Assembly: GCA_902797525.1 (NCBI GenBank)
Contig: CADBSZ010000239.1
Location: 1-11,564, forward strand
Length of the DNA: 11,564 nucleotides
DNA from: an uncultured Ruminococcus sp.
GTDB taxonomy: Bacteria > Bacillota > Clostridia > Oscillospirales > Acutalibacteraceae
Direction: 5' to 3'
Below, piece by piece: positions 8,062-11,564 of the stretch; the first letter of the stretch is position 1, and each line of letters starts with the position of its first letter. The notes below the pieces were generated by a model. The model did not search any database. It saw only the letters and a program-made list of their open reading frames with translations, and had not been told where the DNA came from. A program made the position numbers and the translations under genes.

Positions 8062-8115
8062 GCCACGCCGTTAACCCGACGTTTCCGATTCATCTGCGCC
8101 TTCCAAAGGCATTCT
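8062..8115. repeat. Dispersed intergenic repeat, degenerate copy C1
   Basis: GCCACGCCGTTAACCCGACG and TTTCC match copies B and C3. The right half is diverged, though TCCAAAGGCATTCT still aligns with CTCCAAAGGCGTCCT. It lies about 100 bp upstream of dpaA. Confidence 0.65.
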
Positions 8116-8125
8116 GCTTTTATCA

Positions 8126-8151
8126 GGGCGCACACATGGGTGCGCCCCTAC
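8126..8151. repeat. Second copy of the GGGCG...CGCCCCTAC hairpin
   Basis: GGGCGCAC (8126-8133) and GTGCGCCC (8140-8147) enclose a six-base loop and are followed by CTAC, as at 4600-4622. Two adjacent stem pairs differ from the other copy (A-T to C-G, G-C to A-T) with pairing preserved. Confidence 0.7.
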
Positions 8152-8190
8152 GGTATTTCAAATAGGATGGATTTAAAAACAACGTATCTT

Positions 8191-8240
8191 ACGCCGTTAG
8201 TCCGACGTTTCCAAAAAAACGATTGTTCCGTAGTCGTCCC
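8191..8240. repeat. Dispersed intergenic repeat, degenerate copy C2
   Basis: ACGCCGTTAGTCCGACGTTT followed by CCAAAAAAAC matches the left half of copies B and C3. The right half (GTAGTCGTCCC) is barely recognisable. Confidence 0.6.
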
Positions 8241-8271
8241 GAAAAAACGTTTTGCCTGCTGAAACGCCGGA

Positions 8272-8322
8272 CACGCCGTTAACCCGACGTTTCCAAAAAA
8301 CCGACCTCTCCAAAGGCGTCCT
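8272..8322. repeat. Dispersed intergenic repeat, copy C3
   Basis: CACGCCGTTAACCCGACGTT, then CCAAAAAACCGACC and CTCCAAAGGCGTCCT. It matches copy B over its whole length except for the central bases and the missing CGAG/CTCGG end. ACGCC at the left can pair with GGCGT at the right. Confidence 0.8.
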
Positions 8323-8343
8323 AAAAAAGACGTCCTAAAAAAA
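8315..8343. repeat. Tandem 14-bp duplication at the end of repeat C3
   Basis: GGCGTCCTAAAAAA (8315-8328) is followed directly by GACGTCCTAAAAAA (8329-8342), one mismatch. The A-run of the second unit forms the T-tract of the adjoining minus-strand terminator. Confidence 0.75.
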
Positions 8344-8373
8344 GCAAAACAGGCCGCCGATTGGCAGCCTGTT
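8337..8373 (-). terminator. Intrinsic terminator of the small-RNA unit
   Basis: On the minus strand AACAGGC and GCCTGTT (8373-8367 with 8354-8348) pair, continued inward by GCC/GGC past one mismatch with a four-base loop. TTTTGCTTTTTTT follows. No protein gene on the minus strand ends nearby, which is what reveals the RNA unit. Confidence 0.8.
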
Positions 8374-8478
8374 CCGCGATTGTGTGTTTTATGAAAATGA
8401 ATGCTCTAAGAACGCAATTCATTTTGCCGAATTCCAATGAAACCAAACCGCAAGATGTTGCGGTTATCCGTTTCTTTT
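8338..8478 (-). ncRNA. Candidate free-standing structured small RNA
   Basis: A transcription unit of about 140 nt with its own promoter and terminator and no convincing gene. On the transcript the first hairpin has GAAAC/GTTTC outside an internal loop and an 8-bp stem AACCGCAA-CATC-TTGCGGTT (8465-8446). The second has AAAATGAA/TTCATTTT plus TGC/GCA, with a single bulged base and a nine-base loop (8425-8394). The third is the terminator hairpin. A 33-codon ORF begins at about 8422 with ATGAATTGC, but it has no good ribosome binding site and reads through the terminator stem. I do not recognise the RNA as 6S, SRP, tmRNA or a known riboswitch. It could be a trans-acting small RNA, or an upstream leader element for dpaA 380 bp away. 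Confidence 0.55.
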
Positions 8479-8483
8479 TGTCT

Positions 8484-8512
8484 ATTATACAATTTCAACG
8501 CCCTTTTTTCAA
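8484..8512 (-). promoter_or_regulatory. Sigma-A-type promoter of the small-RNA unit
   Basis: On the minus strand TTGAAA (8512-8507) and TATAAT (8489-8484) are exactly 17 bp apart. The expected start is near 8478, giving a transcript of about 140 nt to the terminator. Confidence 0.8.
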
Positions 8513-8935
8513 GCCTGAAAAAGTGGATTTGTCTTAACTAAACATGCAAAATGACGTTTTGCACAATAATTTTCGACAAAGTTTGTGCAAGATTTTTTGA
8601 CTTTTTCGTGATTCAGTTGTTTTTCAAAACATCAAAAATTTGTTTGTTGACAAATGTTACAAAAATTTCATTTTGTTTTTGACATGCTTTATAATATTAT
8701 TGAAACATTTTTTGATTCTTTTTTGCGTTATTCTGCTTCCCTATTTGACAAAAGTTCAGTATTAATGCGCTTTTTCCGGCTTTGTGGTGCGGAGCCGGCA
8801 ACGCCTTTTTCCGGCATAAAAAAACTACGAAGTTGTAATATTTTTCTTTGTCGGAATTAAATTTTTACGCATTGTCCTGACAATCGCCCAATGCCCTGTT
8901 TTTTATGAATAACAAAACAATTTTCGAACATTCGT
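8513..8935. other. AT-rich intergenic region without a supported gene
   Basis: This spacer between the divergent small-RNA and HTH-operon promoters holds several inverted repeats: TGCAAAA/TTTTGCA (8545-8563), TTGCACA/TGTGCAA (8559-8590), and CCGGCT/AGCCGG (8776-8798). The sequence CTTTTTCCGGC occurs twice (8770-8780 and 8805-8815). A lone TATAAT at 8690-8695 lacks a good -35. A 68-codon plus-strand frame at 8654-8860 has no ribosome binding site and unusual composition, and is not called. Confidence 0.6.
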
Positions 8936-8964: not shown

Positions 8965-8971
8965 AGAATCA

Positions 8972-8985
8972 GGAACCAAGGTTCC
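8972..8985 (+). promoter_or_regulatory. Palindrome at the transcription start, candidate operator
   Basis: GGAACC-AA-GGTTCC is a perfect 14-bp palindrome lying at about +1 to +15. It could be a protein-binding site for autoregulation by the downstream HTH protein, or a 5' hairpin that stabilises the message. A second short inverted repeat, ATGAG/CTCAT, follows at about 8987-9006. Confidence 0.5.
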
Positions 8986-9049
8986 GATGAGCACGCCCCG
9001 ACTCATGAACGAATAACCACACCTTATTGCAAAAACGAAAGGACGAAGA

Positions 9050-9256
9050 ATGAACTACACACAATGGGCACACGAATATGAAGAAACCGCCAACGAGCTT
9101 GACAAGGTTGTCACCAGATTAAAACGCGAGCGCAAAAGCGCGTGCGACTCGGTCAAAAAGGAGCTTGCCGACAAGATTGTGTTTTATCGCGGCTGCCGCA
9201 ACGAGTGCATTAAAATCGCGAACCATTTGATGAACCGTCAAAGAGGGATTTTCTGA
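9050..9256 (+). CDS. Small helical protein of unknown function
   Basis: A 68-residue, strongly helical and charged protein. Heptad-like spacing in YEETANELDKVVTRLKRERKSACDSVKKELADKIVFYRG suggests an antiparallel helical hairpin or coiled coil. Three cysteines (32, 49, 53) include a CRNEC pair. It has no signal peptide or membrane segment. AAAGGA nine bases before the ATG serves as ribosome binding site. Its stop overlaps the next start by one base (TGATG), so the two proteins are probably made together and may act together. I do not recognise a family; pairs like this occur in Clostridia near sigma-like regulators, often in mobile or phage-derived regions. Confidence 0.8.
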   Translation: MNYTQWAHEYEETANELDKVVTRLKRERKSACDSVKKELADKIVFYRGCRNECIKIANHLMNRQRGIF

Positions 9257-9558
9257 TGAAAACCAGGCTGCAATATTTTGACGAAAAAAACACCTCGCTG
9301 CTCTGCTTTCAGCTTTATCGGCAGAAAACAGGCGGCGTAAACAGCCGTGAGCTGGCGCGGATGAGAGCGCTGATGCTGACGGCACTGGAAAAAGAGCTGA
9401 CGCCGCTGCAAAAAATCTGTCTGACCGAATACATCATGCACGGCACCAAGCAAAAAGCAATTGCAGCGTCGCTGGGCTTAAACCCGTCCACTGTTTGCCG
9501 CCATATTGCGGCAGGCATGAAAAAACTGAAACACGCGGCAGCGTATTATTGCGCCTAG
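9256..9558 (+). CDS. Sigma-70 region-4-like helix-turn-helix protein
   Basis: A 100-residue protein. The C-terminal half, LTPLQKICLTEYIMHGTKQKAIAASLGLNPSTVCRHIAAGMKKLKHA in pieces from residue 48, is the region-4 helix-turn-helix of sigma factors and related regulators. The turn lies at about residues 67-74 (KAIAASLG) and the recognition helix at about 77-90. There is no region 2, so it cannot be a complete sigma factor. It is more likely a DNA-binding regulator or a phage-type late-gene activator of the ArpU/RinA kind, although assignment to a named family is not possible here. The start overlaps the previous stop as TGATG, with GAGGG eight bases upstream. A strong terminator follows. Confidence 0.85.
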   Translation: MKTRLQYFDEKNTSLLCFQLYRQKTGGVNSRELARMRALMLTALEKELTPLQKICLTEYIMHGTKQKAIAASLGLNPSTVCRHIAAGMKKLKHAAAYYCA

Positions 9559-9611: not shown

Positions 9612-11564
9612 TTACTCAATAAAGCCCGCAAGCGCTCTTTGAATAGCAGTGACGTCGCGAACGTCCACTTTTCCGTCGGCGTTTGCGTCAGCCGCGAGCA
9701 TTTGTGCGTCGGAAAGCGCGTCGAACTCGGCGAGATAACGCTGCAGCGCGGTCACGTCGTCGATGGACAGCTTGCCGTCACCGTTCACGTCGCCGGAAAC
9801 ATATTCGCCGCCGTTGAGGCTAAGCAGCAGGTTAATCAAATCCGTTTCCTCCTGCTCCTCAAAGCCGCGCTCCGTAATGCTGTCGATCACCTCCTGCGGA
9901 GTAAGATAGAGGTCGCCGAGAATCCGGGTGATGTTGGCGGCCGAATTCATTGTGCTGTCGCCGTAGTTGTGATGGAGATAATCAACGGTGTATGTCAGCG
10001 GAATGGTTTTGTCGTCGTCATAGGTCGGGTCCTCAAATCTGCTTGCCCACTGGATGTTATAAAGCCTGCGCGAAACACCGGTGCTCATGTCCGTTTCCCA
10101 GTCGCCGGTCATAAAAATCATATCGCCGATAAAATCTTTTCTGAAAAGCAGGCGGTTGGTTGCTTCAGACCCATCGTCGACAATCGTCACGGAATACGTT
10201 TCGTCGTCTTCATAGGGAACGTTGTGTTCGGCAAGGTCATATGACCAAATGCCGTCGCCCTCGTCGGTCATCAGCATGTCGTCGCTGCCCCAGTTAAACA
10301 ACGCTCCGTCCTCATTTTCGATGAGCAGGCTGAGGTTTCTGACGCCGGGCAAAAGCTCGGGGTTGACAAGGAAATAAATCTTGCTGTTGTCGCGCTTTTC
10401 CCAAACGGGCGGATCGGGGTCAACCGGCGGATTTTCGTTGGGGAAAAACGTAAAGCCGGCGTTCAGCGTGTCGCCGTAATCCTGCCAAAGCTCAACGATG
10501 TAGGTCTTGCCCGCGTCAAGTGTTGCGCTTTCGTAATTAGACATATCGTCGGTCAGCTCGCAGAGCACGTTAAAGCTCTCGTCATACAGACGAATCGCAA
10601 CGTCTGAATTATCGCGGTCGATATGCAGGTCGCCGTATGCTTCGGCGGTATAGCTATAGAACGCGCGGTCGTCCACCTTTAAGTTTTCAACGCGGTTATC
10701 CGCAACCGGCAACGCCTCCAAAGCGGAAGCGTCGGGCAGTCCGCACACGGTGCAGAAGCCGTCCTCAAAGTGATGGTCGCCTGTTTTTTCAATGAGGTGG
10801 TAGTCAAATATCTCACCGCAGACTTGGCAGGTAAAGCGCGTCATGCCGGTGTGTCCGCAGTCGGCAGGATAAACCTCATAGTACCAGTCGTGGTTGCCTG
10901 TGGGCTCAAACCATTCCACTTCACCAAGCCACTCCATGCAGTCGAGACACCGGTAGCCCTCGGTATGGCCCCACGTGCCGCAGGTTGGCTCCGTGGCAGG
11001 CATAAATTCTACGTTTTCGTGCTTGCATTCATCCGACGGATCGTCGACGGGATTGTTGGCATCGGGGTCAAAGCCGGTTTCTTCATACGCCTGCAGCTGC
11101 TGTTCCTTGGTCAGGCCCAGCTTGGCAGCGGTCTCGTCGGCAATCTGCGACATAGGTTCTTCTCTGAACATAGCGGCGTTGCGGATGCCGTCATTGCCCT
11201 CTGACTTGAGAAAATTACAAAACATGCCGTAGGGCGTTTCGCCCTTCCAATATGCTTCGCCGATAACGTTGCCGATTGAGGTTATCGCCACGGGCGGCGC
11301 ATAAGTGCTGCGGTCGGCATTTGCCCATTCGACGTAGTAGCTATGTTTGTTGCTGTCTAGGTTGTTTTCAACTATGTTGCCGCCGTCGAGATATGCCAAG
11401 TCGCCCAAACACGCGCTGCCGAAAATCAAATCGCAGGTTTGAGTGCTCCAGTCGGCGGTAAAAATCACGCCGTACTCCTTGCTGTCGTCAAGCTCGAAGC
11501 CCTTTGCGGCGAGGTCAAACGACCAAATGTTGTCGCCCTCGTCGGTCATTCTGCCTTTTTTGCT
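9612..11564 (-). CDS. Dockerin-containing extracellular multidomain protein (N-terminus beyond the window)
   Basis: 650 codons are visible and the frame stays open to the window edge, so the real start and any signal peptide are missing. Numbering is from the first visible Met (11549). Residues 1-165 and about 388-565 are two copies of a beta-rich module with a helical tail (MTDEGD-IWS-DL in both, ending EETGF and TERGF). Residues 175-270 are Cys/His-rich, with CLDC, CQVC and CTVC pairs, like segments in clostridial surface proteins. Residues 285-370 look like a PPC/CBM-type beta-sandwich (FYSYTAEAYGDLHI, GKTYIVELW). Residues 585-645 are a type I dockerin with two calcium loops, DVNGDGKLSIDD and DANADGKVDVRD. 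The acidic composition suits an exported protein. A dockerin implies binding to a cohesin, so cellulosome- or amylosome-like attachment is possible. No catalytic domain is visible. Confidence 0.88.
   Translation of the reverse strand, partial: SKKGRMTDEGDNIWSFDLAAKGFELDDSKEYGVIFTADWSTQTCDLIFGSACLGDLAYLDGGNIVENNLDSNKHSYYVEWANADRSTYAPPVAITSIGNVIGEAYWKGETPYGMFCNFLKSEGNDGIRNAAMFREEPMSQIADETAAKLGLTKEQQLQAYEETGFDPDANNPVDDPSDECKHENVEFMPATEPTCGTWGHTEGYRCLDCMEWLGEVEWFEPTGNHDWYYEVYPADCGHTGMTRFTCQVCGEIFDYHLIEKTGDHHFEDGFCTVCGLPDASALEALPVADNRVENLKVDDRAFYSYTAEAYGDLHIDRDNSDVAIRLYDESFNVLCELTDDMSNYESATLDAGKTYIVELWQDYGDTLNAGFTFFPNENPPVDPDPPVWEKRDNSKIYFLVNPELLPGVRNLSLLIENEDGALFNWGSDDMLMTDEGDGIWSYDLAEHNVPYEDDETYSVTIVDDGSEATNRLLFRKDFIGDMIFMTGDWETDMSTGVSRRLYNIQWASRFEDPTYDDDKTIPLTYTVDYLHHNYGDSTMNSAANITRILGDLYLTPQEVIDSITERGFEEQEETDLINLLLSLNGGEYVSGDVNGDGKLSIDDVTALQRYLAEFDALSDAQMLAADANADGKVDVRDVTAIQRALAGFIE

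Follow-up and report, generated by a model that had tools for sequence, protein, structure and literature searches.

The small RNA DicF acts on ftsZ. Both DicF and StfZ of Escherichia coli are small RNAs tied to cell division, and StfZ acts on ftsZ, according to the available portions of the reports (PMC5069750, PMC9628754). For the dcw operon, the available text on StsR of R. sphaeroides describes a trans-acting small RNA that binds the dcw 5' UTR, affects dcw expression and cell division, and acts on UpsM and the mraZ leader together with RNase E (PMC8307010); UpsM derives from the dcw leader, again as given in the available part of the source (PMC5089854). Among the matches listed in our literature searches, and as far as their accessible text goes, the trans-acting small RNAs on dcw or ftsZ are proteobacterial. 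Titles and abstract openings on R. bromii held no report of small RNAs of its own, and among the matches listed for small RNAs with ftsL, mraZ or dcw in Firmicutes, none concerned this group. A large catalogue of microbiome RNA candidates could, judging from its available portion, include the RNA described here (PMC8040213). Within a window of 11,564 nucleotides (the whole stretch of DNA analysed) from an uncultured Ruminococcus sp., we identified a conserved, probably regulated RNA gene whose predicted target, in the dcw operon, is well supported; our searches gave no earlier report of such an RNA in this lineage. We consider it likely that this gene encodes a small non-coding RNA that acts in trans by base-pairing with the ftsL leader, thereby tuning cell division.

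On the minus strand of the window, a promoter of the form TTGAAA-17-TATAAT (8484..8512; 11 of 12 consensus positions) and an intrinsic terminator (8337..8377), composed of a 15-pair hairpin at 8377-8344 and a T tract running to 8337, bracket a predicted small RNA of about 141 nt (8337..8477), the start of which was placed from the -10 element. This architecture is read directly from the sequence, and from it we infer transcription; it bears out the initial annotation, which had placed a promoter and a terminator around about 140 nt, and both elements, together with an internal segment, recur in 57 of the 161 same-genus genomes, which is more than expected by chance. The two further hairpins named there also appear in the MFE fold: a variable 5' hairpin (hairpin 1, 8439..8474) with the inner stem AACCGCAA/TTGCGGTT, and hairpin 2 (8394..8425), with 11 pairs and one bulge. 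The MFE of the RNA is -51.8 kcal/mol, compared with -30.2 (sd 3.8) for shuffled sequences (z -5.63), and none of 200 shuffles was as good. Downstream of hairpin 2 lies the linker CATAAAACACACAAT (8379..8393, minus strand), predicted to be unpaired from its unpaired probability across homologs. The 17-nt predicted pairing segment ATTTTCATAAAACACAC (8382..8398, minus strand) has its complement in the ftsL leader and, for the window's subclade, largely also in the mraZ leader. The most informative part of the RNA, absent from the initial annotation, is the segment ATTTTCATAAAACACACAATCGC, whose complement occurs in dcw operon leaders.

The absence of a credible ORF, claimed earlier, likewise holds: no ORF of at least 60 aa overlaps the RNA locus, and on the strand of the RNA there are only two short ORFs, of 41 and 30 aa, both starting with TTG. 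A coding gene was rejected: the longest complete ORF within the predicted transcript has a median length of 13 aa and a maximum of 43 across 54 homologs, and translation from the ATG of the hairpin 2 arm would enter the core in any of three frames, depending on the homolog (28, 16 and 10 homologs). The earlier statement that no named RNA family has this layout agrees with our searches, in which no Rfam family (release 15) matched in the window at its gathering score; at a relaxed threshold the top match reached 22.7 bits, where the gathering score is 55, and seven related loci gave no match at E 0.1. 6S RNA (RF00013), which like the present RNA is encoded by a free-standing small RNA gene, had no match at the RNA locus; a separate 6S RNA was found in 10 of the 11 genus genomes tested, with no match in the window's own incomplete genome.

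Homologs were recovered by several routes. BLAST against 98 related genomes retrieved 17 same-genus loci with E values of at most 6.6e-10, the window's own among them, and a 23-mer pattern allowing 0-1 mismatch was present in 55 of 161 genus genomes. A covariance model built on 56 homologs gave one strong match apiece in 57 of these 161 genomes, each scoring at least 61 bits, with the next best at 46.6 bits. In a sample of 394 genomes of the order, which included a few of the same genus, the model gave no strong match outside the genus, the best reaching 42.9 bits. Named records in which a 19-mer search pattern occurs exactly include R. bromii ATCC 27255, YE282 and 5AMG, Ruminococcus sp. FMBCY1 and Ruminococcaceae bacterium P7; the same 19-mer had no match in viral contigs. 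Since the homologs in alignment A1 were chosen by this exact 19-mer, its invariance there is by construction; 9 of the 65 distinct 19-mer stretches, from Bacteroidota, Nitrospirales, Ignavibacteria, Patescibacteria and one Bacillota MAG, did not show the gene architecture and were excluded. The BLAST loci, 17 of 17 of which contain the 19-mer, and the covariance-model matches provide checks free of that selection. Collectively, these searches place the predicted RNA gene in 57 genomes from gut relatives of Ruminococcus bromii.

Comparison of the homologs separates fixed from drifting parts of the RNA. TATAAT is exact in all 54 homologs with upstream DNA, two further homologs having been left out of this count where the contig ends before the promoter, and the spacer is 17 bp in 53 of the 54. 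The predicted RNA length ranges from 82 to 178 nt. The 5' part is absent in 8 of 54 homologs and extends up to a long hairpin in others; where present, it folds with z below -1 in 39 of 46. Of the two stems described in the initial annotation, hairpin 2 is kept in relatives, where z lies below -1 in 50 of 54 cases, whereas hairpin 1 is replaced by other hairpins or missing: its sequence is not conserved, and it is absent from the shortest homologs. In the covariation analysis of hairpin 1, 79.5% of cells are paired, and 62 of 500 shuffles scored equally high. In the terminator, 10 of the 15 pairs show compensatory, both-side changes (56 homologs). Hairpin 2 combines a 3' arm invariant in letters with a drifting 5' arm. 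The linker has a mean unpaired probability with a median of 0.89 and a lowest value of 0.54 across 54 homologs. A fixed segment amid drifting structured parts suggests a pairing seed. A diverged RNA copy lacking a recognisable promoter was also observed at L178 (genome G196) and L280, with the ftsL site of the genome altered too, possibly reflecting joint decay.

Upstream of the promoter, the 54 homologs aligned gap-free on the -35 element reveal an ungapped conserved block of 70 bp (8528..8597, minus strand), defined by column conservation. It contains two dyads, TTGCACAAA...TTGTGCAA and TGTCnTTT...AAAnGACA, which likely constitute one or more regulator sites; TTGCACAAA is exact at 8582-8590, and both dyads lie at a constant distance from the RNA promoter in all 54 homologs. 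Given this conserved upstream block with its two dyads, expression of the RNA is probably regulated.

In the window, dpaA lies on the same strand as the RNA, about 360 bp downstream, and the identities of dpaA and dpaB were confirmed by profile; this arrangement would accommodate the initial annotation's second proposal, a terminated leader or attenuator acting on dpaAB. Synteny leads us to reject that proposal as very improbable: dpaA follows the RNA in just 5 of the 17 homologous loci (L001-L005), while the RNA persists in all 17. Three copies of an imperfect direct repeat, ACGCCGTTAACCCGACGTTTCC, were also observed between dpaA and the RNA terminator (8064-8328). On the other side, orf68 and a 100-aa sigma-70 region 4-like protein (Sigma70_r4_2) are divergent neighbours (9050..9558, plus strand) that form the usual, though not a required, context. 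orf68 lies divergently 246-2185 nt upstream of the RNA in 52 of the 57 RNA-positive genomes; of the other five, one has no orf68 match, two carry it on another contig, one shows another arrangement, and in one (G100) it is about 592 kb away. Homologs of orf68 also occur in 7 RNA-negative genomes with no strong RNA match. Cis action on orf68 is thus unlikely, given the distance in G100 and the different arrangement in G126. This variable dpaA and orf68 context indicates that the RNA is an independent gene. The conserved promoter, terminator and internal segment support the initial annotation's first proposal, a free-standing gene for a small RNA in a lineage of spore-forming Clostridia. As separate observations, the orf68 leader (8965-9050, and L185-L191 upstream of orf68) contains a recurrent element, which in RNA-negative relatives reads about GAGC...CCCCATGCTCAGTGAATACG in orf68 orientation; it may be a separate leader RNA and had no Rfam match in the window. 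Further along the window, a 645-aa protein encoded at 9612-11549 combines a type I dockerin with a weak match to CBM26, a starch-binding module, as in amylosome-type starch degraders.

Searching six close genomes with the complement of the linker recovered, apart from the RNA gene, the mraZ leader in all six and, in four of the six, another site that follows on the same contig at a distance of about 1.65 kb. The gene order in the window's genome is mraZ, rsmH (both assigned by profile) and a gene for a 182-aa protein, with the second complementary site falling between rsmH and this last gene. The 182-aa protein is likely FtsL-like, mainly by its position after mraZ and rsmH together with a weak profile match (17.1 bits against TIGR02209, cut-off 42.45; its top Pfam match is DUF5788). 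In this genome, another in-frame ATG precedes the ftsL start used here by 24 nt; the downstream start was preferred because it is preceded by the Shine-Dalgarno-like AAGGTG. The dcw sites lie on contig G000:C29 and the RNA gene on C239, which are different contigs of the window's genome. With its own promoter and intrinsic terminator around a short non-coding stretch, and a conserved unpaired segment matching an unlinked leader, the locus has the sequence features of a trans-acting base-pairing small RNA.

For the wider survey, mraZ coordinates were used from the 150 of 157 genomes with a match, by which 3 of the 57 RNA-positive genomes were missed. This yielded dcw regions from 54 RNA-positive genomes and from 85 of the 96 listed RNA-negative genomes, of which two in each group were too short for judgement; the region of G174 is not dcw and was left out. 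A site of 13-18 nt exactly complementary to the RNA precedes ftsL in 50 of 52 evaluable RNA-positive genomes, and the two without a 13-nt exact match (G141 and G026) differ by a single A-to-G change that leaves a G-U pair. Among 83 evaluable RNA-negative genomes, the site is present in only four: in G142 and G187 the contig ends near the expected RNA start, in G177 another gene occupies that place, and no RNA was detected in G189, a genome 80% complete. The remaining 79, the close relatives G009, G193 and G003 included, have a complement of at most 10 nt in the ftsL region. The distance from the ftsL site to the start codon is 39-54 nt, with a median of 48 (53 leaders), the start codon being unplaceable in 2 leaders. 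The mraZ-leader site (at least 13 nt) is more restricted, occurring in 11 of the 53 RNA-positive genomes judged and, among 84 others, in G187 and G177; within the window's subclade the complement falls in the loop of a predicted hairpin, as seen in the 4 genomes folded.

The predicted duplex energy of the window's RNA is -22.3 kcal/mol with the ftsL leader and -23.7 kcal/mol with the mraZ leader. Duplex energies better than those of all 60 shuffles were obtained in 53 of 55 RNA-clade genomes, against 2 of 61 RNA-negative genomes. The association between RNA and ftsL site has a Fisher value of 1.2e-29, which overstates it because the MraZ and RsmH tree gives only 4 well-supported independent pairs and no significance. 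As RNA and site are largely confined to one clade, their co-occurrence does not amount to many independent events.

Within the ftsL leaders, the complementarity forms a block of 17 positions, with pairing dropping to background at both borders. Across 56 leaders (51 distinct; alignment A3 holds 34 of the 56), the 867 cells of the block comprise 834 Watson-Crick pairs, 19 G-U pairs and 14 broken positions, and 19 of the 27 substitutions opposite an RNA U are A to G. Block positions 2-11 were part of the pattern used to place the site, so that invariance there is partly by construction; every evaluable leader of the RNA clade passed that pattern. The shared sequence might instead be a DNA operator, a double-stranded motif recognised by MraZ or some other regulator of dcw at three places: the RNA gene, the mraZ leader and the rsmH-ftsL gap. 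The mraZ leaders do contain direct repeats of type GGTGTCATTT about 10 bp apart, which we take to resemble MraZ boxes; the third of these overlaps the complement of the RNA in the window's subclade. However, the ftsL block is a single 17-nt stretch with sharp borders and changes that mostly preserve G-U pairs, its counterpart in the RNA gene lies within the transcribed region between hairpin and terminator, and the RNA-negative genomes read have the mraZ repeats too, without the ftsL site. We therefore regard operator function as unlikely and favour RNA pairing.

Consistent with RNA pairing, the fixed 3' arm of hairpin 2 would supply the first part of the pairing segment and the linker the rest. 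From the complementarity and spacing, which are features of the genomes themselves, we infer pairing in cells that would start at the unpaired linker and then open hairpin 2, producing a duplex of about 17 bp with the ftsL leader; its end would fall about 31 nt short of the start codon, immediately ahead of the ribosome-binding site. A further contact would be made in the window's subclade, between the segment and the predicted hairpin loop of the leader of mraZ, which opens the dcw operon. Occupation ahead of the Shine-Dalgarno sequence may lower ftsL translation or mRNA stability, an outcome that we favour only slightly over activation. Upon pairing, predicted Shine-Dalgarno accessibility rises in 13 of 53 leaders and falls in 7, so that across these leaders neither freeing nor hiding of this sequence is consistently predicted.

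We also weighed whether this conserved small RNA has its main role elsewhere, on a protein or on other mRNAs, with the dcw complementarity being secondary. The target search was limited to complements near a core of 15-16 nt, and the fixed segment extends beyond the 17-nt block, both of which leave room for such a role. A point against the pairing model itself is that, in a 16-nt complement search covering 30 of the 57 RNA-positive genomes, at least two other places in the window's genome equal the ftsL site (2 mismatches) among the matches listed. Against a main role elsewhere stand the prominence of the mraZ leader among the recurrent matches in all six close genomes, with the second site on the same contig in four, and the almost universal presence of the ftsL site in the RNA clade; such a role thus appears quite improbable, and pairing at the ftsL leader remains our preferred reading.

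Two further complementary sequences were considered as targets. A leader element, ATTGTGTGTTTGATAAAATTTTACGA, lies just after a promoter-like sequence and before a gene for a predicted secreted protein with no Pfam match (L181, L182, L219, L347-L376, L378-L380). It was found in all 35 RNA-positive leaders read and also in the RNA-negative genomes G009, G193 and G003, so part of the motif exists without the RNA, and this leader was dropped as a third target. A TGTGKGYTTTATGATA match recurred in 8 of 161 genomes, all RNA-positive, and was set aside because each of the 8 loci has it antisense to an open frame, with frame lengths of 160-754 codons.

Taken together, the RNA would probably help control the timing of division in R. 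bromii-related bacteria, as its conserved sites in the dcw operon suggest. A broader proposal, that the R. bromii lineage has its own division-control RNA, which pairs before ftsL, has in one subclade captured the mraZ-leader loop, and exerts post-transcriptional control over the septum, is more tentative, and we would place it a little short of an even call; if true, no RNA of this sort would have been described before for the dcw operon of Firmicutes. The locus offers a concrete, testable pair of small RNA and target in the lineage of a cultured degrader of resistant starch, R. bromii, and the 17-nt pairing rule should be useful for finding further targets.

Compared with known systems, as far as the accessible descriptions of these allow, the present RNA resembles StsR (with UpsM) as a trans-acting small RNA directed at a dcw leader, a likeness in mode of action for which we claim no homology. 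StsR, however, is alphaproteobacterial and acts on the mraZ leader, whereas the widespread predicted site of the present RNA lies before ftsL. Similarly, it resembles DicF and StfZ, again with no homology claimed, as a small RNA linked to division control; yet, in the same accessible descriptions, DicF is encoded by a prophage and StfZ is an antisense RNA acting in cis on ftsZ, while the present RNA is encoded by a free-standing Ruminococcus gene with a predicted site in the ftsL leader.
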